Below are positions 40,626 through 52,172 of a stretch of DNA of 64,000 bases, piece after piece; positions within the stretch are counted from its first letter, which is position 1, and each line of letters opens with the position of its first letter. A program made the translations under genes and the position numbers. The notes under the pieces are model-generated. The model made no database searches, was not told the DNA's origin, and saw nothing but the letters and a program-made list of their open reading frames with translations. Origin of the DNA: Streptomyces sp. NBC_01750 (GTDB lineage Bacteria; Actinomycetota; Actinomycetes; Streptomycetales; Streptomycetaceae); contig NZ_CP109137.1 in NCBI RefSeq assembly GCF_035918095.1, forward strand, positions 7,194,001-7,258,000. The letters run 5' to 3'.

Positions 40626-41006
40626 GTGACTCCTGAGGACTTCGCCGACGCCAAGTACATCAGTGTGACCACGTTCCGCAAGGACGGGACGGGCGTCGCC
40701 ACGCCCGTGTGGTTCGCGGTGGACGGCGGTGAGATCTTTTTCTGGACCCGCTCCGACTCCTGGAAGGTCAAGCGCCTGCGCAACAACAGTCGCGTCGTCG
40801 TCACGGTCTGCGACGTACGCGGCCGGATCGTGGACGGCGCACCCGGCGCGGAAGGCACGGCGCGGCTGTTGGACGAGGTCGGGATGGGTGCAGTCCGCAA
40901 ACTCCTCGCCCGCAAGTACACCTGGCAGTTCTGGCTGGTCGACTGGCCCGCGACGATCGTGCGACGAGGGAAGCGGCCGCACACCGGCATCGCTGTAACT
41001 ATCTGA
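40626..41006 (+). CDS. PPOX-class F420-dependent oxidoreductase-like protein
   Basis: A 126-residue split-barrel protein of the pyridoxamine-phosphate-oxidase-like superfamily (Rv2061c type). MTPEDFADAKYISVTTFRKD, GVATPVWFAVDGGEIFFWTR and SWKVKRLRNNSRVVVTVCDV are the usual cofactor-binding strands. Actinobacterial members commonly bind F420 or flavin. Its substrate is unknown. It is preceded by 287 nt with no recognisable gene. Confidence 0.85.
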   Translation: MTPEDFADAKYISVTTFRKDGTGVATPVWFAVDGGEIFFWTRSDSWKVKRLRNNSRVVVTVCDVRGRIVDGAPGAEGTARLLDEVGMGAVRKLLARKYTWQFWLVDWPATIVRRGKRPHTGIAVTI

Positions 41007-42994: not shown

Positions 42995-43837
42995 ATGGCC
43001 AATGTCGTACGCGCCGCACTGGTCCAGGCGACCTGGACCGGCGACACCGAATCCATGATTGCGAAACATGAGGAACACGCCCGCGAGGCGGCCCGCCGGG
43101 GCGCCAAGGTCATCGGTTTCCAAGAGGTGTTCAACGCGCCGTACTTCTGTCAGGTCCAGGAGCCGGAGCACTACCGGTGGGCCGAGCCCGTCCCGGACGG
43201 CCCGACCGTCCGCCGGATGCAGGAACTCGCCCGCGAGACCGGCATGGTGATCGTGGTCCCGGTCTTCGAGATCGAGGGCGCCGGCTTCTACTACAACACC
43301 GCCGCCGTGATCGACGCCGACGGCTCCTACCTCGGCAAGTACCGCAAGCACCACATTCCGCAGGTCAAGGGCTTCTGGGAGAAGTACTACTTCAAGCCGG
43401 GGAATCTGGGCTGGCCGGTCTTCGACACGGCGGTCGGCAGGGTCGGGGTGTACATCTGCTACGACCGGCACTTCCCGGAGGGCTGGCGTCAACTGGGGCT
43501 GAACGGCGCCCAGTTGGTCTACAACCCATCCGCCACCTCACGCGGGCTCTCCGCATACCTCTGGCAGCTGGAGCAACCCGCGTCCGCCGTCGCCAACGAG
43601 TACTACATCGCCGCCATCAACCGCGTCGGCCAGGAAGAGTACGGCGACAACGACTTCTACGGCACCAGCTACTTCGTCGACCCGCGCGGCCAGTTCGTCG
43701 GTGAGGCCGCCAGCGACAAGGAGGAGGAGCTGCTCGTCCGGGACCTCGACTTCGACCTGATCGACGTCGTACGACAGCAGTGGGCGTTCTACCGGGACCG
43801 CCGCCCCGACGCGTACGAAGGACTGGTGCAGCCGTGA
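42995..43837 (+). CDS. Beta-ureidopropionase (N-carbamoyl-beta-alanine amidohydrolase)
   Basis: A 280-residue nitrilase-superfamily enzyme with the Glu-Lys-Cys triad E44 (GFQEVF), K118 (YRKHHIP) and C155 (YICYDRHFPEGWRQ). The KGFWEKYYFKPGN loop is typical of beta-ureidopropionases and related N-carbamoyl amidases. It converts N-carbamoyl-beta-alanine to beta-alanine, CO2 and ammonia, the third step of reductive pyrimidine breakdown. ATG 42995 has AAGGAG 8 nt upstream. It is the first gene of a five-gene unit, and its stop overlaps the aminotransferase start (GTGA). Confidence 0.88.
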   Translation: MANVVRAALVQATWTGDTESMIAKHEEHAREAARRGAKVIGFQEVFNAPYFCQVQEPEHYRWAEPVPDGPTVRRMQELARETGMVIVVPVFEIEGAGFYYNTAAVIDADGSYLGKYRKHHIPQVKGFWEKYYFKPGNLGWPVFDTAVGRVGVYICYDRHFPEGWRQLGLNGAQLVYNPSATSRGLSAYLWQLEQPASAVANEYYIAAINRVGQEEYGDNDFYGTSYFVDPRGQFVGEAASDKEEELLVRDLDFDLIDVVRQQWAFYRDRRPDAYEGLVQP

Positions 43838-45114
43838 CCAGCCTGCACGACCGCCACAAGGCCGTCATCCCCGACTGGGTCGCTCTCTACTACCAGCAGC
43901 CGATCGAGATCTCGCACGGCGAGGGCCGCCATGTCTGGGACGCGAACGGCAAGCGCTACCTCGACTTCTTCGGCGGCATCCTCACCACCATGACCGCGCA
44001 CGCTCTCCCCGAGGTCACCAAGGCGGTGAGCGAGCAGGCCGGGCGGATCATCCACTCCTCCACGCTCTACCTCAACCGTCCGATGGTCGAGCTCGCCGAG
44101 CGGGTCGCGACCCTCTCCGGCATCCCCGACGCGCGGGTCTTCTTCACCACCTCGGGCACCGAGGCCAATGACACAGCCCTGTTGCTCGCGACCGGATACC
44201 GCCGCTCCAACCAGATTCTGGCCATGCGCAACAGCTACCACGGCCGGTCCTTCTCCGCGGTCTCCATCACCGGCAACCGCAGCTGGTCGCCCACCAGCCT
44301 CTCCCCGCTGCAGACGCTGTACGTGCACGGCGGCGTCCGCACCCGCGGCCCCTACGCCAGGTTGTCCGACGCGCAGTTCATCGAGGAATGCGTCGCCGAC
44401 CTCGAGGATCTGCTCGGGCAAACCCGCGATGTCGCCGCGCTGATCGCCGAGCCCATCCAGGGCGTCGGCGGTTTCACCTCGCCGCCCGACGGTCTCTACG
44501 CGGCTTTCCGCGAGGTCCTCGACCGGCACGGCATCCTGTGGATCTCCGACGAGGTGCAGACCGGCTGGGGTCGCACGGGCGAACACTTCTGGGGCTGGCA
44601 GGCGCACGCCGAGAACGGCCCGCCCGACATGCTCACTTTCGCCAAGGGCATCGGGAACGGCATGTCCATCGGCGGTGTCGTAGCCCGCGCCGAGATCATG
44701 AACTCCGTGGACGCCAACTCGATTTCGACCTTCGGCGGCTCCCCGATCACCATGGCGGCGGGCGCCGCCAACCTCTCGTATCTGCTGGAGCACGATCTCC
44801 AGGGCAACGCCCGCCGTGTCGGCGGTCTGCTGATCGAGCGGCTGCGGGCCATCGGAGCGAGTGCTCCGGCCGTACGGGAAGTGCGCGGCCGCGGCCTGAT
44901 GATCGGCATCGAGCTGGTCAAGCCCGGCACGGACGAGGCGAACCCCGAGGCGGCTTCGGCCGTCCTGGAGGCCGCCCGCGAGGGCGGGCTGCTGATCGGC
45001 AAGGGCGGCGGCCACAACACCAGCGTCCTGCGGATCGCCCCACCGCTGTCGCTGACCGTCGCGGAGGCGGAAGAGGGCGCCTCGATCCTTGAACGGGCCC
45101 TGCACAGCGTCTAG
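43834..45114 (+). CDS. Class III aminotransferase (beta-alanine transaminase-like)
   Basis: A 426-residue PLP enzyme. Visible motifs are FFTTSGTEANDTALLLATGY (phosphate binding), NSYHGRSFSAVSITG, the cofactor aspartate in LWISDEVQTGWGRTG and the PLP-binding lysine in MLTFAKGIGNGMSIGG. It resembles AGXT2-type aminotransferases, which move the amino group of beta-alanine or 3-aminoisobutyrate to pyruvate or glyoxylate. In this context it would turn beta-alanine into malonate semialdehyde. GTG 43834 overlaps the preceding stop, so the two genes are translationally coupled. Confidence 0.88.
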   Translation: MTSLHDRHKAVIPDWVALYYQQPIEISHGEGRHVWDANGKRYLDFFGGILTTMTAHALPEVTKAVSEQAGRIIHSSTLYLNRPMVELAERVATLSGIPDARVFFTTSGTEANDTALLLATGYRRSNQILAMRNSYHGRSFSAVSITGNRSWSPTSLSPLQTLYVHGGVRTRGPYARLSDAQFIEECVADLEDLLGQTRDVAALIAEPIQGVGGFTSPPDGLYAAFREVLDRHGILWISDEVQTGWGRTGEHFWGWQAHAENGPPDMLTFAKGIGNGMSIGGVVARAEIMNSVDANSISTFGGSPITMAAGAANLSYLLEHDLQGNARRVGGLLIERLRAIGASAPAVREVRGRGLMIGIELVKPGTDEANPEAASAVLEAAREGGLLIGKGGGHNTSVLRIAPPLSLTVAEAEEGASILERALHSV

Positions 45115-45176
45115 TTCTGCCCACCTCGGCCTTCACTTCAGCCTCCAGTTCAGCGTACGAGAGGGAGCGCACCAGC

Positions 45177-46583
45177 ATGAGCAGCACCCGCACCCTGATC
45201 CGCGGCGGTCTGGTCATCACCGCAGCGGACGAGATCCATGCGGACGTACTGATCGACGACGGCCGAATCGCGGCGCTTGCCGCCCACGGCTCAGCGGTGT
45301 CCGAGGCATGGACCGCCGATCGCACCATCGACGCGACGAACAAGTACGTCATCCCGGGCGGCGTCGACGCCCACACCCATATGGAACTGCCCTTCGGCGG
45401 GACCTTCGCCTCCGACTCCTTCGAGACCGGGACGCGGGCCGCCGCCTGGGGTGGCACCACCACCATCATCGACTTCGCCGTCCAGTCGGTCGGGCACGCC
45501 CTCCGCGAAGGCCTGGACGCCTGGTACGCCAAGGCCGACGGCAAGTGCGCCGTCGACTACGGCTTCCACATGATCCTCTCCGACGTCAATGAGTCGTCGC
45601 TGAAGGAGATGGACAAGCTGGTGGAGGAGGGCATCACCTCCTTCAAGCTCTTCATGGCCTACCCCGGCGTCTTCTACAGCGACGACGGCCAGATCCTGCG
45701 CGCCATGCAGCGCTCCGCCACCAACGGCGGGCTGATCATGATGCACGCCGAGAACGGCATCGCCATCGACGTCCTGGTGGAGCAGGCGCTGGCCGAGGGC
45801 CGCACCGATCCGCGCTACCACGGCGAGGTGCGCAAGGCCCTGCTGGAGGCCGAGGCCACGCACCGCGCCATCCAGCTGGCGCGGGTCGCCGGAGCTCCGC
45901 TGTACGTCGTCCACGTGTCGGCCGAGGAAGCCGTCGCCGAGCTGGTGGCCGCCCGCGACAAGGGACTCAACGTCTTCGGCGAGACCTGTCCGCAGTACCT
46001 CTTCCTGTCCACGGACAACCTTGCCGAGCCCGACTTCGAGGGCGCGAAGTACGTCTGCTCCACGCCGCTGCGGCCGCGCGAGCACCAGGCCGCGCTCTGG
46101 CGCGGGCTGCGGACCAATGACCTCCAGGTCGTCTCCACCGACCACTGCCCCTTCTGCTTCGTGGGCCAGAAGGAACTGGGCCGCGGCGATTTCTCCAAGA
46201 TTCCCAACGGGCTGCCCGGCGTGGAGAACCGGATGGATCTGCTCCACCAGGCGGTCGTCGACGGACACCTCACCCGTCGCCGCTGGATCGAGATCGCCTG
46301 CGCGACGCCGGCCCGGATGTTCGGCATCTATCCGAAGAAGGGCACCATCGCCCCCGGTGCCGACGCCGACGTCGTCATCTACGACCCGCACGCCGAACAG
46401 ACCCTCTCGGCCGAGACCCACCACATGAACGTCGACTACTCCGCGTACGAGGGCAAGCGGATCACCGGCCAGGTGGAGACCGTGCTGTCGCGCGGCGAAG
46501 TGGTCATCGACGGGCGGGAGTTCACCGGACGGGCGGGACACGGCCAGTACACCCCGCGCGGCACCTGCCAGTACCTCATGTAG
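45177..46583 (+). CDS. hydA: Dihydropyrimidinase (D-hydantoinase)
   Basis: A 468-residue cyclic amidohydrolase with a binuclear metal site: H66/H68 in VDAHTHMELPFGG, the carbamylated K157 in SFKLFMAYPG, histidines in MHAENG and VVHVSAEEA, and the aspartate in STDHCPFCF. It opens dihydrouracil or dihydrothymine to the carbamoyl amino acid, the second step of the reductive pyrimidine route; family members also accept 5-substituted hydantoins. ATG 45177 has GAGAGGGAG upstream. It lies 62 nt after the aminotransferase gene in the same direction. Confidence 0.93.
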   Translation: MSSTRTLIRGGLVITAADEIHADVLIDDGRIAALAAHGSAVSEAWTADRTIDATNKYVIPGGVDAHTHMELPFGGTFASDSFETGTRAAAWGGTTTIIDFAVQSVGHALREGLDAWYAKADGKCAVDYGFHMILSDVNESSLKEMDKLVEEGITSFKLFMAYPGVFYSDDGQILRAMQRSATNGGLIMMHAENGIAIDVLVEQALAEGRTDPRYHGEVRKALLEAEATHRAIQLARVAGAPLYVVHVSAEEAVAELVAARDKGLNVFGETCPQYLFLSTDNLAEPDFEGAKYVCSTPLRPREHQAALWRGLRTNDLQVVSTDHCPFCFVGQKELGRGDFSKIPNGLPGVENRMDLLHQAVVDGHLTRRRWIEIACATPARMFGIYPKKGTIAPGADADVVIYDPHAEQTLSAETHHMNVDYSAYEGKRITGQVETVLSRGEVVIDGREFTGRAGHGQYTPRGTCQYLM

Positions 46584-46646
46584 CCACCTCACTCACCCAG
46601 GCACCCAGGCACCTTGTCCAGGAACTCATCTAGGAGCGGCCAGGCC

Positions 46647-47648
46647 ATGGACTTCGGACTTGTCCTGCAGACCGACCCGCCGGCCTCGGCCGTCGTCGGA
46701 CTGATGCGACGCGCGGAACGCAACGGATTCCGCTACGGCTGGACCTTCGACTCGGCGGTGCTCTGGCAGGAGCCCTTCGTCATCTACAGCCAGATTCTCG
46801 AACACACGGAGACGCTCACCGTAGGACCGATGGTGACCAATCCGGGCACCAGGACCTGGGAGGTCACCGCCTCCACGTTCGCGACGCTGAACGACATGTA
46901 CGGCAACCGCACCGTGTGCGGTATCGGACGCGGCGACTCCGCGATGCGTGTCGCAGGACGCAAACCCAACACCCTGGCCAGGCTCGGCGAGGCGATCGGC
47001 GTCATCCGCGACCTGGCCGAGGGCCGGGAAGCCGTCGTCGAGGGCCAGCCACTGCAGCTGCCATGGGTGCGGGACGGAAAGCTGCCGGTGTGGATGGCGG
47101 CGTACGGCCCCAAGGCGCTGGCCCTCGCGGGCCAGCAGGCCGACGGGTTCATCCTCCAGCTCGCCGACCCGTATCTGACCGCGTCGATGGTCACGGCCGT
47201 ACGCACCGCCGCCTCCGACGCCGGACGTGACCCCGACTCCATCACCATCTGCGTCGCCGCGCCCGCGTACGTCGGCGACGACCTCGCGCACGCCCGTGAA
47301 CAGTGCCGCTGGTTCGGCGGAATGGTCGGCAACCACGTCGCCGACCTGGTCTCCCGCTACGGCGAGCACTCCGACCTGGTGCCCGAGGCTCTCACCGCGT
47401 ACATCAAGGCACGCGAGGGGTACGACTACAGCCACCACGGGCGCGCCGGGAACCCGTCCACGGACTTCGTCCCGGACGAGATCGTCGACCGCTTCTGTCT
47501 GCTGGGACCCGCAGAGGCGCATATCGAGAAGCTGAAGGCGCTGCGCGAGCTGGGCGTCGACCAGTTCGCGGTCTACAACATGCACGACGCGAAGGAAGCG
47601 ACCATCGACGCGTACGGCTCCGAGATCATCCCGGCACTCAACCGCTGA
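46647..47648 (+). CDS. LLM-class (F420-type) oxidoreductase in a pyrimidine-catabolism operon
   Basis: A 333-residue luciferase-like TIM-barrel protein, closely similar in layout to methylenetetrahydromethanopterin-reductase-like enzymes. The start MDFGLVLQTDPPASAVVGLM, GRGDSAMRVAGRKPNTLARL, LPVWMAAYGPKALALAGQQA-DGFILQLADP and a C-terminal LLGPAEAHIEKLKALRELG-VDQFAVYN fit the TIGR03842 family, whose reaction is unknown. ATG 46647 has AGGAGCGG 7 nt upstream. It lies between dihydropyrimidinase and the permease. As the operon lacks a dihydropyrimidine dehydrogenase, this protein is a candidate for uracil reduction, or for an oxidative step on the same compounds. Confidence 0.9.
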   Translation: MDFGLVLQTDPPASAVVGLMRRAERNGFRYGWTFDSAVLWQEPFVIYSQILEHTETLTVGPMVTNPGTRTWEVTASTFATLNDMYGNRTVCGIGRGDSAMRVAGRKPNTLARLGEAIGVIRDLAEGREAVVEGQPLQLPWVRDGKLPVWMAAYGPKALALAGQQADGFILQLADPYLTASMVTAVRTAASDAGRDPDSITICVAAPAYVGDDLAHAREQCRWFGGMVGNHVADLVSRYGEHSDLVPEALTAYIKAREGYDYSHHGRAGNPSTDFVPDEIVDRFCLLGPAEAHIEKLKALRELGVDQFAVYNMHDAKEATIDAYGSEIIPALNR

Positions 47649-47662
47649 AAGGTCCAGCAGCC

Positions 47663-49210
47663 ATGACCGCGACCGTCCCGCCCTCCCCGTCCGGGGAATC
47701 GATACAGGACATGTCGGGACGCGTCGAACTCGCGCCCGGCGAGGTCCCCGCCGACAATCGCTTCGTCAACGACGATCTGCTGCCCGTCCCGGTCGCGAAG
47801 CGCCGCTGGACGACGTACAACTTCGCCGCGCTGTGGGTCGGCATGGCCCACAACATCCCGTCCTGGCTGCTTGCTTCGGGCCTGGTCACACTGGGGATGG
47901 ACTGGAAGCAGGCGGTGTTCACCATCAGCCTCGCCAATCTGATCGTGCTGGGGCCGATGCTGCTCACCGGGCACGCGGGACCCAAGTACGGCATTCCCTT
48001 TCCCGTGCTCGCGCGGGCGTCCTTCGGACTGCGCGGCGCGAATCTGCCGGCGCTGATCCGGGCCGGGGTGGCCTGCGCCTGGTTCGGCATCCAGACCTGG
48101 ATCGGCGGGCAGGGCATCTTCATTCTGCTCGGCAAGATCTTCGGCGGCTGGGCCAAGGCCTCGGAAGTCGGCGGGCAGCCGTGGACGCTCTGGGTCTGCT
48201 TCCTGCTCTTCTGGGTGCTCGAACTCGCCATCATCTACCGGGGGATGGAGACGCTGCGACGGTTCGAGAACTGGGCCGCGCCCTTCGTCATCGTCGGCGC
48301 GCTGGCGCTGCTGGTGTGGATCACCCTGAAGGCGGGCGGCCTCGGGCCGCTGCTCGACCAGCCCTCCAAGCTCGGCTGGGGCGCGGACTTCTGGCCGGTC
48401 TTCTTCCCGTCGCTGATGGGGATGATCGCCTTCTGGTCGACGCTGTCGCTGAACATCCCCGACTTCACCCGCTTCGGAGCCGGCCAACGCGCCCAGATCT
48501 GGGGGCAGTCGCTGGGTCTGCCGACGACGATGACGCTCTTCGCCCTGCTGTCGGTCTTCGTCACCTCCGGCTCCCAGGCGGTGTACGGGGTGGCGATCTG
48601 GGATCCGGTCGAACTCGCAGCCAAGACGGACAATGTCTTCGGACTGCTCTTCGCGCTCGTGACGGTGCTGATCGCGACGATCTCGGTGAACATCGCGGCG
48701 AATGTCGTGTCGCCCGCCTACGACCTGGCGAATCTGGCGCCGAAGCTGATCAACTTCCGCAGGGGAGCGCTGATCACGGGCGTTGTCGGCGTACTGATCA
48801 TGCCATGGAAGCTGACCGAGACTCCCGAGCTCTATATCTTCACCTGGCTCGGCCTGGTGGGCGGACTGCTCGGCACGGTCGCGGGCATCCTCATCGCCGA
48901 CTACTGGCTGATCCGCCGCACCGTCCTCGACCTTGCCGGCCTCTACACCCCGGGAAGCCGCTACTGGTACACCTCCGGCTGGAATCCGCGCGCAGTCGCG
49001 GCGTTCGTGGTCGGCGGGCTGCTGGCGGTGGGCGGTTCACACTCGGAGCAGGGCAAGGGGCCGTTTCCCGAGGACGGGCTGATCCCCTTCCTGAAGCCGC
49101 TCGCGAACTACGGCTGGGCGGTGGGGCTGGCGGCGTCGCTGGTGCTCTATGTGGCGCTGATGCTGCCGGAGCGGGGCCGCGCGGCGAATTCGGGCGTGTC
49201 TGGCGTTTGA
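47663..49210 (+). CDS. NCS1-family nucleobase/hydantoin permease
   Basis: A 515-residue transporter with twelve helices, of the nucleobase:cation symporter-1 family (Mhp1, PucI, uracil/allantoin permeases). Signature segments are RWTTYNFAALWVGMAHNIPS, GHAGPKYGIPFPVLARASFG, ACAWFGIQTWIGGQGIF, LSLNIPDFTRFG and the ISVNIAANVVSPAYDLANL helix. ATG 47663 begins 14 nt after the LLM stop. It should import the substrate of the preceding enzymes, so uracil, thymine, dihydro forms or hydantoins are candidates; allantoin cannot be excluded. Confidence 0.9.
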   Translation: MTATVPPSPSGESIQDMSGRVELAPGEVPADNRFVNDDLLPVPVAKRRWTTYNFAALWVGMAHNIPSWLLASGLVTLGMDWKQAVFTISLANLIVLGPMLLTGHAGPKYGIPFPVLARASFGLRGANLPALIRAGVACAWFGIQTWIGGQGIFILLGKIFGGWAKASEVGGQPWTLWVCFLLFWVLELAIIYRGMETLRRFENWAAPFVIVGALALLVWITLKAGGLGPLLDQPSKLGWGADFWPVFFPSLMGMIAFWSTLSLNIPDFTRFGAGQRAQIWGQSLGLPTTMTLFALLSVFVTSGSQAVYGVAIWDPVELAAKTDNVFGLLFALVTVLIATISVNIAANVVSPAYDLANLAPKLINFRRGALITGVVGVLIMPWKLTETPELYIFTWLGLVGGLLGTVAGILIADYWLIRRTVLDLAGLYTPGSRYWYTSGWNPRAVAAFVVGGLLAVGGSHSEQGKGPFPEDGLIPFLKPLANYGWAVGLAASLVLYVALMLPERGRAANSGVSGV

Positions 49211-50148: not shown

Positions 50149-51579
50149 GTGTCCACAGATGAATTCGCCGGACTGGCAGAACACGTACGGATGTTGAGGG
50201 ACGGTCGGACCACGTCCGAAGAGCTGGTGACCAGCGCGATCGAGCGCATCCAGGCCAGCCAGAGCACCATCAACGCCTTCCGCTGGGTGCGCGGAGAACA
50301 GGCGCTCGCCGAAGCCCGTGACGCCGACCGGCGGCTGGCGGCGGGGGAGCGGCTGCCGCTCCTCGGCGTGCCGCTCGCCGTCAAGGACGACACCGACGTG
50401 GCCGGATTGCCGACGCTCTTCGGCTGCGACGGTGAACTCGCCCCGGCCGCCACGGACGGTGAAGCGGTACGGCGCCTCCGCGCGGCCGGCGCCGTGATCG
50501 TCGGCAAGACCAACTCCTGCGAACTCGGCCAGTGGCCGTTCACCGAGGGCCCCGCCTTCGGAGCGACCCGGAACCCCTGGTCGACCGACCACACCCCGGG
50601 CGGCTCCTCCGGCGGTTCCGCGGCCGCCGTCGCCGCAGGGCTCGTGCCCGCGGCGCTCGGCTCGGACGGCGCCGGATCGGTCCGCATCCCCGCGGCCTGG
50701 TCCCATCTCGTCGGCATCAAGCCACAGCGCGGTCGCGTCTCCCTGTACCCCTACGCCGACGCCTTCCAGGGCCTCGCGGTGAACGGCCCGCTCGCCCGCA
50801 CCGTCACCGACGCCGCCCTGCTCCTCGATGTGGTGCAGGGCCCGCACCCCGAGGATCTCCACCGGCCGGACGCGATCGACGCCTCCGCCGCCGCCCGCCG
50901 CGATCCGGGCCGGCTGCGCATCGCGCTCGCCTGGCGCCCACCGCTGACCCTCACCCGCGCCATGCCCCACCCCGAAGTGCGCCGCGCCGTCACCGCACTC
51001 GCCGAGGCCCTCGCCCGCCTCGGCCACGAGGTGGAGGAGGCCAGGCCGCGCTACGGGCTGATCGGCCTCGCCTTCGTGCCGCGCGCCACCGCCGGGATCG
51101 CCGAAGTCGCGGCCCTGCACCCCGATCCCGCTCTCCTCGACCCGCGCACGCGCAGCGCCATGCGCAACGGCCGGCGGCTCGGCGGCCGTGTGGTGCGGGC
51201 CGCCCGCGCCCGTGAGGCCCGTCAGCACCAGAGGATCGGCGCGATCTTCGACACCTACGACGTCGTGATCACCCCGACCACCGCGGCGCCACCGCCGCGC
51301 ATCGGCACCTTCGACCACATGGGCGCCTGGCGCACCGACTCGACGATGGCGGCCGCGTGTCCGTACGCCTGGCCATGGAACGTACTGGGCTGGCCCGGCG
51401 TCAATGTGCCGGCCGGCCTCACCGCAGACGGGCTGCCCGTCGGCGCCCAGTTGCTCGGGCCGGCCGACAGCGAGGAGCGACTGATCTCGCTCGCCGCCCA
51501 ACTCGAGGCGGACCAGCGGTGGCACGAGAAGCGGCCGCCCGCCCCGGTGACCAGGGGGAGCGTGCCGGTGGAACAATGA
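50149..51579 (+). CDS. Amidase-signature hydrolase
   Basis: A 476-residue amidase with the Ser-cisSer-Lys triad: K79 in LAVKDDTD, S153/S154 in TPGGSSGGSAAA and the nucleophile S177 in GSDGAGSVRIPAAW. The C-terminal PGVNVPAGLTADGLPVGAQL is typical. It hydrolyses an unknown carboxamide. GTG 50149 has GGGAGG about 10 nt upstream. It overlaps the downstream TetR gene (ATGA) and is divergent from an SDR gene, suggesting a small TetR-controlled detoxification or nitrogen-scavenging unit. Confidence 0.92.
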   Translation: MSTDEFAGLAEHVRMLRDGRTTSEELVTSAIERIQASQSTINAFRWVRGEQALAEARDADRRLAAGERLPLLGVPLAVKDDTDVAGLPTLFGCDGELAPAATDGEAVRRLRAAGAVIVGKTNSCELGQWPFTEGPAFGATRNPWSTDHTPGGSSGGSAAAVAAGLVPAALGSDGAGSVRIPAAWSHLVGIKPQRGRVSLYPYADAFQGLAVNGPLARTVTDAALLLDVVQGPHPEDLHRPDAIDASAAARRDPGRLRIALAWRPPLTLTRAMPHPEVRRAVTALAEALARLGHEVEEARPRYGLIGLAFVPRATAGIAEVAALHPDPALLDPRTRSAMRNGRRLGGRVVRAARAREARQHQRIGAIFDTYDVVITPTTAAPPPRIGTFDHMGAWRTDSTMAAACPYAWPWNVLGWPGVNVPAGLTADGLPVGAQLLGPADSEERLISLAAQLEADQRWHEKRPPAPVTRGSVPVEQ

Positions 51580-52172
51580 CCGTCATGTCCAACCCCGCCC
51601 GCTCCGCCCCGACCCGGCAGCGCATCATCACCGCCGTCCTGCACATCATCGGCAAGGACGGCGTCGCGGCGGTCACCAACCGGCGGATCGCCAAGGAGGC
51701 GGGCGTCTCGCTCGGCTCGGTCACGTACCACTTCGAGACCCAGCACGAGCTGTTGCGCGAGAGCCTGCTGCACTTCGTGCGCGAGGAGACCCGCCGCTTC
51801 ACCGAGCTCGCCGACCAGTGCCAGAGCGACGGCGTCGATATCGAGGGTGCCGCCGCCCTGGCCGGGCAGGTGGCGGGCGGCACGTCCTTCGACAGCGAGC
51901 ACATCGCGCCCTTCGAGCTGTACGTCGAGGCCGGCCGGGACGAGCGGCTGCGGGAAGCGGCCGCCGAGGCGTTCGCGGCCTACGACCGGCTGGCGGCGCA
52001 GATTCTCACCGGCCTCGGGGTCCCGGACGCCGAGCGTCTCGCCGCGACCACGGTGGCGCTGGTGATGGGCCTGCAACTGCGCAGACTGGCGACGGGCGGG
52101 CCGGCCGAGGACCTCGTCGACGCGCTGCTGCTGCTCGCGCGGGGCGCGGTCAGCCACGACGTCGGGCGGTGA
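51576..52172 (+). CDS. TetR-family transcriptional regulator
   Basis: A 198-residue repressor. The helix-turn-helix is at about 14-60 (RQRIITAVLHIIGKDGVAAV, TNRRIAKEAGVSLGSVTYHF) followed by a TetR ligand domain with ELYVEAGRDERLREAAAEAF and a closing LVDALLLLARG. Its start overlaps the amidase stop, so the two are made together, and it most likely binds the palindrome at 50112-50129 to control both divergent genes and itself. Confidence 0.9.
   Translation: MTVMSNPARSAPTRQRIITAVLHIIGKDGVAAVTNRRIAKEAGVSLGSVTYHFETQHELLRESLLHFVREETRRFTELADQCQSDGVDIEGAAALAGQVAGGTSFDSEHIAPFELYVEAGRDERLREAAAEAFAAYDRLAAQILTGLGVPDAERLAATTVALVMGLQLRRLATGGPAEDLVDALLLLARGAVSHDVGR

Follow-up and report, generated by a model that had tools for sequence, protein, structure and literature searches.

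The window analyzed here, a 64,000-nucleotide stretch of the Streptomyces sp. NBC_01750 genome (positions 7194001 to 7258000), contains five genes that look like an operon for the reductive degradation of uracil and thymine (Table 1). Their order and positions, as given in a preliminary description of the sequence, were confirmed by profile matches, and all five lie on a single strand. The intergenic gaps of −4, 62, 63, and 14 bp, in operon order, fit an operon; the GTG start of the aminotransferase gene overlaps the stop of the CN_hydrolase gene by 4 bp. The fourth gene encodes a protein of the luciferase-like monooxygenase (LLM) class that matches the family model TIGR03842 (F420_CPS_4043) over the full model. 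Judging from genome comparisons, we propose, with a probability of about 0.8, that this protein is an F420H2-dependent uracil/thymine reductase acting as the first enzyme of the pathway.

Table 1. Genes of the putative pyrimidine degradation operon (window positions)
Gene product	Position	Strand	Profile match
CN_hydrolase (proposed beta-ureidopropionase)	42995..43837	+	PF00795, 239 bits
Class-III aminotransferase (proposed beta-alanine or beta-aminoisobutyrate transaminase; substrate predicted)	43834..45114 (GTG start at 43834)	+	PF00202, 294 bits
Dihydropyrimidinase (HydA/PydB)	45177..46583	+	TIGR02033, 562 bits (cut-off, 393)
LLM-class oxidoreductase (proposed F420H2-dependent uracil/thymine reductase, first step)	46647..47648	+	TIGR03842, 594 bits (cut-off, 295)
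NCS1-family nucleobase permease	47663..49210	+	TIGR00800, 445 bits (cut-off, 353); PF02133, 469 bits

The preliminary description had called the first gene product a beta-ureidopropionase. Its membership in the CN_hydrolase family stood, and the specific substrate is a prediction: the top NCBIfam model was N-carbamoylputrescine amidase (264 bits, below the cut-off of 410), no curated NCBIfam cut-off was reached, and matches in the PDB were to a carbamoylputrescine amidohydrolase (204 bits), beta-ureidopropionase (181 to 172 bits), and D-carbamoylase (105 bits). A Streptomyces plasmid encodes relatives of four of the five operon proteins (79 to 90% identity).

Dihydropyrimidine dehydrogenase had been reported missing from the window, and its absence extends to the whole 8.98-Mb genome. 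The PreA model NF006183, which scores E. coli PreA at 688 bits, had no match anywhere in the genome (E 1e-60), and PF01180 (DHO_dh) had a single match (E 0.001), to the quinone-dependent dihydroorotate dehydrogenase PyrD (TIGR01036, 412 bits). In a Pfam scan, the TIGR03842 protein of the window matched PF00296 only and had no DHO_dh domain.

Genomic company of TIGR03842

We searched a single set of 296 Actinomycetota genomes for TIGR03842 (E 1e-60), HydA (E 1e-100), and PreA (E 1e-60) and found matches in 62, 87, and 2 genomes, respectively. HydA was present in 59 of the 62 genomes with TIGR03842 versus 28 of the 234 others (Fisher value, 1.4e-36, which ignores species relatedness and should not be read as the probability of a function). 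For 47 of the 65 actinomycetotal TIGR03842 genes, HydA lay at most 10 kb away on the same contig, at spacings of 39 bp to 6.2 kb and with two on the opposite strand; this variation in spacing and strand indicates that the linkage has been kept through rearrangement. Three TIGR03842 genomes had no HydA, and in the two examined (L013 and L036) an NCS1 or amidohydrolase gene adjoins the LLM gene. PreA was found in none of the 62 TIGR03842-bearing genomes. One actinomycetotal locus (L044, G191:C37:2341-3522) has a PreA-like reading frame interrupted by a single TAG; its genome gave no HydA or TIGR03842 match at the search thresholds.

The family occurs in Actinomycetota, Pseudomonadota, Chloroflexota, and one Acidobacteria metagenome-assembled genome (MAG); no near-identical copy of the Leisingera TIGR03842 gene was found when E. 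coli genomes were searched. From an alignment scan of named genomes we took the best 80 of 594 confirmed stretches, which come from Alpha- and Gammaproteobacteria, Chloroflexota, and a few others. These 80 loci, which rank highest by similarity to a Leisingera sequence, do not form a random sample; their neighbors were identified by blastp against reference proteins, and contig ends cut many of them. Genes resembling hydA (at least 90 bits) were present in 40 of the 80, with 32 at 300 bits or more and the rest cut or weak. Carbamoylase/amidohydrolase genes were present in 44 (40 at 300 bits), and hydA or carbamoylase in 49 (45 at 300 bits). NCS1 genes were found in 16 loci and RutR-like genes in 31, and at least one of the hydA, carbamoylase, NCS1, and RutR-like genes flanked TIGR03842 in 59. 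For the 21 loci without a pyrimidine neighbor, HydA was encoded elsewhere in the genome over the cut-off in 18 cases, below the cut-off in one, and not at all in two.

RutR was the top model for all 11 TetR neighbors that were scanned (10 of the 31 RutR-like proteins from the 80 loci and the one from a Leisingera caerulea plasmid). Downstream of the operon in the window, at 50149 to 52172 on the plus strand, lies an amidase gene (NF004717, 771 bits; cut-off, 498) and, after it, a gene for a TetR regulator; RutR was not among the NCBIfam matches of this TetR protein.

A plasmid search placed TIGR03842 on 12 records (10 Leisingera, 1 Paracoccus, and 1 Streptomyces). On the Leisingera and Paracoccus plasmids it directly follows cofG-cofH-cofD-cofC-cofE-npdG, and on L. 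caerulea plasmids this F420 set, TIGR03842, and a RutR-like gene are divergent from a pntA-pntB-aminotransferase-carbamoylase-hydA-NCS1 array. The L. caerulea region is predicted to encode a complete uracil pathway with its own F420 supply and without preTA. The Paracoccus denitrificans cluster of F420 genes and TIGR03842 (G296, L050) includes hydA, carbamoylase, NCS1, and RutR-like genes; a P. alcaliphilus plasmid has F420 genes and TIGR03842 with no pyrimidine gene within 10 kb. The transhydrogenase genes pntA-pntB lie inside pyrimidine/F420 clusters of Leisingera (L045:2492-5518) and Halomonas (L077:12422-15249), where they possibly supply NADPH to Fno. A record titled Nocardioides marinus DP1N28-1 (L046) contains a Leisingera-type F420/TIGR03842 cluster with a 98% identical LLM protein; it looks mislabeled, as the genome that it comes from (G445) belongs to the same order as P. 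denitrificans. In a record titled as a cyanobacterial Pleurocapsa minor MAG (L119), TIGR03842 and hydA resemble those of Chloroflexota, and the contig is possibly a contaminant.

The preliminary description had proposed checking whether genomes with the LLM gene next to hydA lack pydA/preTA. This held for the genome of the window, for all 62 TIGR03842-bearing actinomycetes, and for 49 of the 57 genomes from the 80-locus set that were tested for PreA, which had none over the cut-off; neither preA nor preT lay beside TIGR03842 in any of the 80 loci. PreA exceeds the cut-off in 134 of the 149 genomes of the order to which P. denitrificans belongs (141 at E 1e-60), and P. denitrificans is among the 15 in which it does not. 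TIGR03842 occurs in two of the 149, P. denitrificans without PreA and G445 with it, which are too few for a statistical claim.

We also examined the preT-preA pairs of the eight tested genomes that have PreA over the cut-off in addition to TIGR03842. A RutR-like gene adjoins the pair in seven of the eight, and a carbamoylase of the same family is also present in five, within 4.3 kb; the one regulator scanned with hidden Markov models was RutR-like at 212 bits. Because RutR-like and carbamoylase neighbors are common to the preTA and TIGR03842 modules, the two seem to keep the same kinds of company, which suggests that they carry out the same step. Genome context thus supports the view that the LLM protein stands in place of dihydropyrimidine dehydrogenase, its catalytic role being predicted.

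Predicted fold and F420 supply

The predicted fold of TIGR03842 had only F420-dependent LLM enzymes as its top 15 structural matches, in a list (VIA) that does not exclude fold families outside it. Both the nearest solved fold and the nearest sequence relative in the PDB are Mer, the F420-dependent methylenetetrahydromethanopterin reductase (26 to 29% identity in the structural alignment), from which TIGR03842 differs by its own invariant segments, WFxxMVGNHVAD and RxGYDYxxH.

F420 genes accompany TIGR03842 in many loci. At least one of cofG, cofH, cofD, and cofC was present in 44 of the 80, the full set of cofG/H/D/C/E and npdG in 33, and pyrimidine-type and F420-type neighbors together in 37. 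The F420-reducing enzymes npdG (Fno) and FGD (more than 150 bits) adjoin TIGR03842 in 46 and 9 loci, respectively, which suggests that it consumes F420H2; a Mesorhizobium locus (L101) has cofG/H/D/E with FGD and no npdG match. The preliminary description had left the choice between a deazaflavin and a flavin donor. The deazaflavin is favored: since orthologues are linked to F420 biosynthesis genes, F420-reducing enzymes, or an apparent F420 uptake set, the hydride donor is likely F420 rather than FMN or NADPH. Both F420 proteins searched for in the genome of the window, CofD (427 bits) and Fno (253 bits), are encoded there. A gene for a PPOX-class F420-dependent oxidoreductase (TIGR03666, 143 bits; cut-off, 85) lies upstream of the operon at a distance of about 2 kb, at 40626 to 41006 on the plus strand.

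CofD was found on 39 plasmid records, 11 of which (10 Leisingera and 1 Paracoccus) also carry TIGR03842, and this rules out the idea that F420 is made solely for TIGR03842. Plasmids with CofD, and presumably F420 biosynthesis, and no TIGR03842 match include those of Sinorhizobium, Paraburkholderia, Agrobacterium, Croceicoccus, and others (H24 to H51).

Nine loci from Devosia, Pelagibacterium, and a Hyphomicrobiales MAG (L091 to L096, L100, L104, and L120) have no cofG, cofH, cofD, or cofC nearby. CofD was absent from all eight genomes of this group that were tested; the other 24 of the 32 genomes searched together have it (23 over the cut-off). In all nine loci, genes for CofE, a Peripla_BP_2 protein, a FecCD permease, and an ATP-binding cassette ATPase adjoin TIGR03842 (for example, at L092:10001-15868), and FGD is present in eight, the families having been scanned in L091 and L092 and assigned by similarity in the other loci. 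HydA is encoded in all nine genomes. We infer a candidate F420 uptake system in which a BtuFCD-like importer would bring in F420 (or F420-0), CofE would extend its tail, and FGD would reduce it, feeding TIGR03842. We know of no F420 uptake system that has been described, although no literature search was aimed at one. If the uptake interpretation is true, an apparent counterexample becomes support for F420 dependence.

Proposed pathway and competing explanations

In the pathway that we propose, the NCS1 permease would import uracil or thymine, and the TIGR03842 protein would reduce the C5=C6 bond of the pyrimidine by direct hydride transfer from F420H2 (with C6 as the probable acceptor). Dihydrouracil or dihydrothymine would thereby form without flavin or iron-sulfur clusters. 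The dihydropyrimidinase would open the dihydropyrimidine ring, the amidohydrolase would then release CO2 and NH3 (as a beta-ureidopropionase turning carbamoyl-beta-alanine into beta-alanine), and the aminotransferase would finally remove the amino group of beta-alanine. The association is real and conserved, and the interpretation probably right; its support is genomic and is not proof.

Several observations weigh against this pathway. PreA exceeded the cut-off in 8 of the 57 named genomes (three Leisingera, Limimaricola, L046, Aquamicrobium, Devosia psychrophila, and a Geminicoccaceae MAG), so that strict mutual exclusion with TIGR03842 is false; in one further genome, G476, a match of 219 bits falls short of the cut-off. 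In Actinomycetota, PreA is so scarce that its absence from the 62 TIGR03842 genomes adds little by itself. The 80 loci are a nonrandom set, the PreA test covered only 57 of their genomes, and many of the genomes are MAGs for which no completeness is given. Among the 40 loci counted for hydA, eight have weak or truncated matches (118 to 298 bits), and the hydA-like genes of L054, L056, and L057 may be other amidohydrolases. The RutR-like proteins score under the curated cut-offs (165 to 233 versus 368 bits for TIGR03613, and 143 to 203 versus 230 bits). Fno was over the cut-off in 10 of 23 TIGR03842 genomes tested, below it in 5, and absent from 8, so the source of F420H2 varies and need not be Fno. 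Some other plasmids have F420 gene sets without TIGR03842, and the lack of CofD in the Devosia group means that F420 would come from outside or that the orthologue there uses another cofactor.

An unlikely alternative places TIGR03842 at the end of the pathway, as an F420-linked reductase or dehydrogenase of the malonate (or methylmalonate) semialdehyde formed by the aminotransferase, with an unrecognized enzyme reducing uracil. The window operon does include an aminotransferase, and the relatives Adf and FGD, whose folds match well, act on alcohols and sugar phosphates (PMC8498797, available text). The RutR-like and carbamoylase neighbors of preT-preA pairs, however, suggest action at the PreTA step; class-III aminotransferases were detected in just 27 of the 80 loci (flanks were often cut), and no alternative candidate for the first enzyme was seen linked. 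At alignment column 36, FGD and Mer have a histidine, which is catalytic in FGD, and TIGR03842 has an invariant serine; this is a weak argument, as Mer is no alcohol dehydrogenase and also has the histidine.

Also improbable, and ranked below it, is that the operon serves to break down hydantoins or a different cyclic amide, with TIGR03842 reducing or oxidizing that ring. The model TIGR02033 is named D-hydantoinase/dihydropyrimidinase and does not separate the two, the top PDB match of the window protein is a D-hydantoinase (525 bits), and the NCS1 family includes hydantoin and allantoin carriers. A published F420 proposal for Chloroflexota concerns the purine product yanthine (PMC12507026, available text). 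The preliminary description had raised the hydantoin possibility, which is disfavored by the RutR-like (pyrimidine-type) regulators in all 11 scanned neighbors and by the company common to TIGR03842 and preTA. The amidohydrolase resembles beta-ureidopropionase more closely than it does D-carbamoylase, and hydantoin hydrolysis requires no redox step.

It is highly improbable that TIGR03842 is an FMN/O2-dependent uracil monooxygenase like RutA of the Rut pathway: RutA shares the LLM fold and the uracil substrate, but within the LLM TIM barrels the predicted fold of TIGR03842 is nearest to F420 enzymes, and the Rut pathway is not known to include a dihydropyrimidinase. Least probable of all is a reverse reaction in which dihydropyrimidine oxidation supplies F420H2; the LLM enzymes FGD and Adf do reduce F420 (PMC8498797, available text), but a dedicated F420-reducing enzyme already lies near TIGR03842 in the npdG and FGD loci counted above, and downstream hydrolysis would pull uracil reduction forward.

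If TIGR03842 is the F420H2-dependent reductase, the missing first enzyme of uracil degradation is named for actinomycetes of this kind, and a function is assigned to an uncharacterized F420 family spanning several phyla. It would also explain the F420 biosynthesis genes of some marine and soil Proteobacteria, giving the cofactor a concrete role there, and predicts that P. denitrificans makes F420 for pyrimidine use. The wider claim, which we favor by a small balance, is a joint one: that a nonhomologous, F420H2-dependent uracil reductase free of flavin and iron-sulfur clusters operates across phyla, that F420 biosynthesis is an accessory module of pyrimidine catabolism in Proteobacteria such as P. 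denitrificans, and that Devosia scavenges F420 with the BtuFCD-like importer, CofE, and FGD.

Comparison with known systems

In the accessible literature, the Streptomyces genes SCO6414-6417, which we take to be the match of the window operon, appeared only in an expression table and a gene list. No F420-dependent uracil reductase was found among the open-access papers listed (bioRxiv excluded), a scope that could miss work in subscription journals. In the available text of an F420 review (PMC8498797), the words uracil, dihydropyrimidine, and hydantoin do not appear, and F420 is reported from P. denitrificans only in trace quantities; the accessible parts of PMC8097209, PMC8764529, and PMC10143877 hold nothing on F420-dependent uracil reduction.

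The closest printed idea, as far as its available text goes, is the luciferase-family, F420-dependent yanthine reductase predicted from Chloroflexota urate clusters and linked to SsnA (PMC12507026). There, too, a luciferase-family F420 enzyme would replace an iron-sulfur reductase in reductive ring opening, but it was proposed for urate and yanthine rather than uracil, and that text makes no mention of F420 biosynthesis operons. In Clostridium, the first step also departs from the usual electron donor, through a ferredoxin-dependent PydA without the NADH/FAD domains (PMC7332683, available text); there PydA is kept, whereas here the whole protein would be replaced. Compared with the reductive pyrimidine degradation that begins with PydA or PreT-PreA, the families of the second to fourth enzymes, the type of transporter, and, in Proteobacteria, the RutR-like regulator are the same, and the difference lies in the first step, where the iron-sulfur flavoenzyme gives way to an unrelated LLM protein predicted to use F420.

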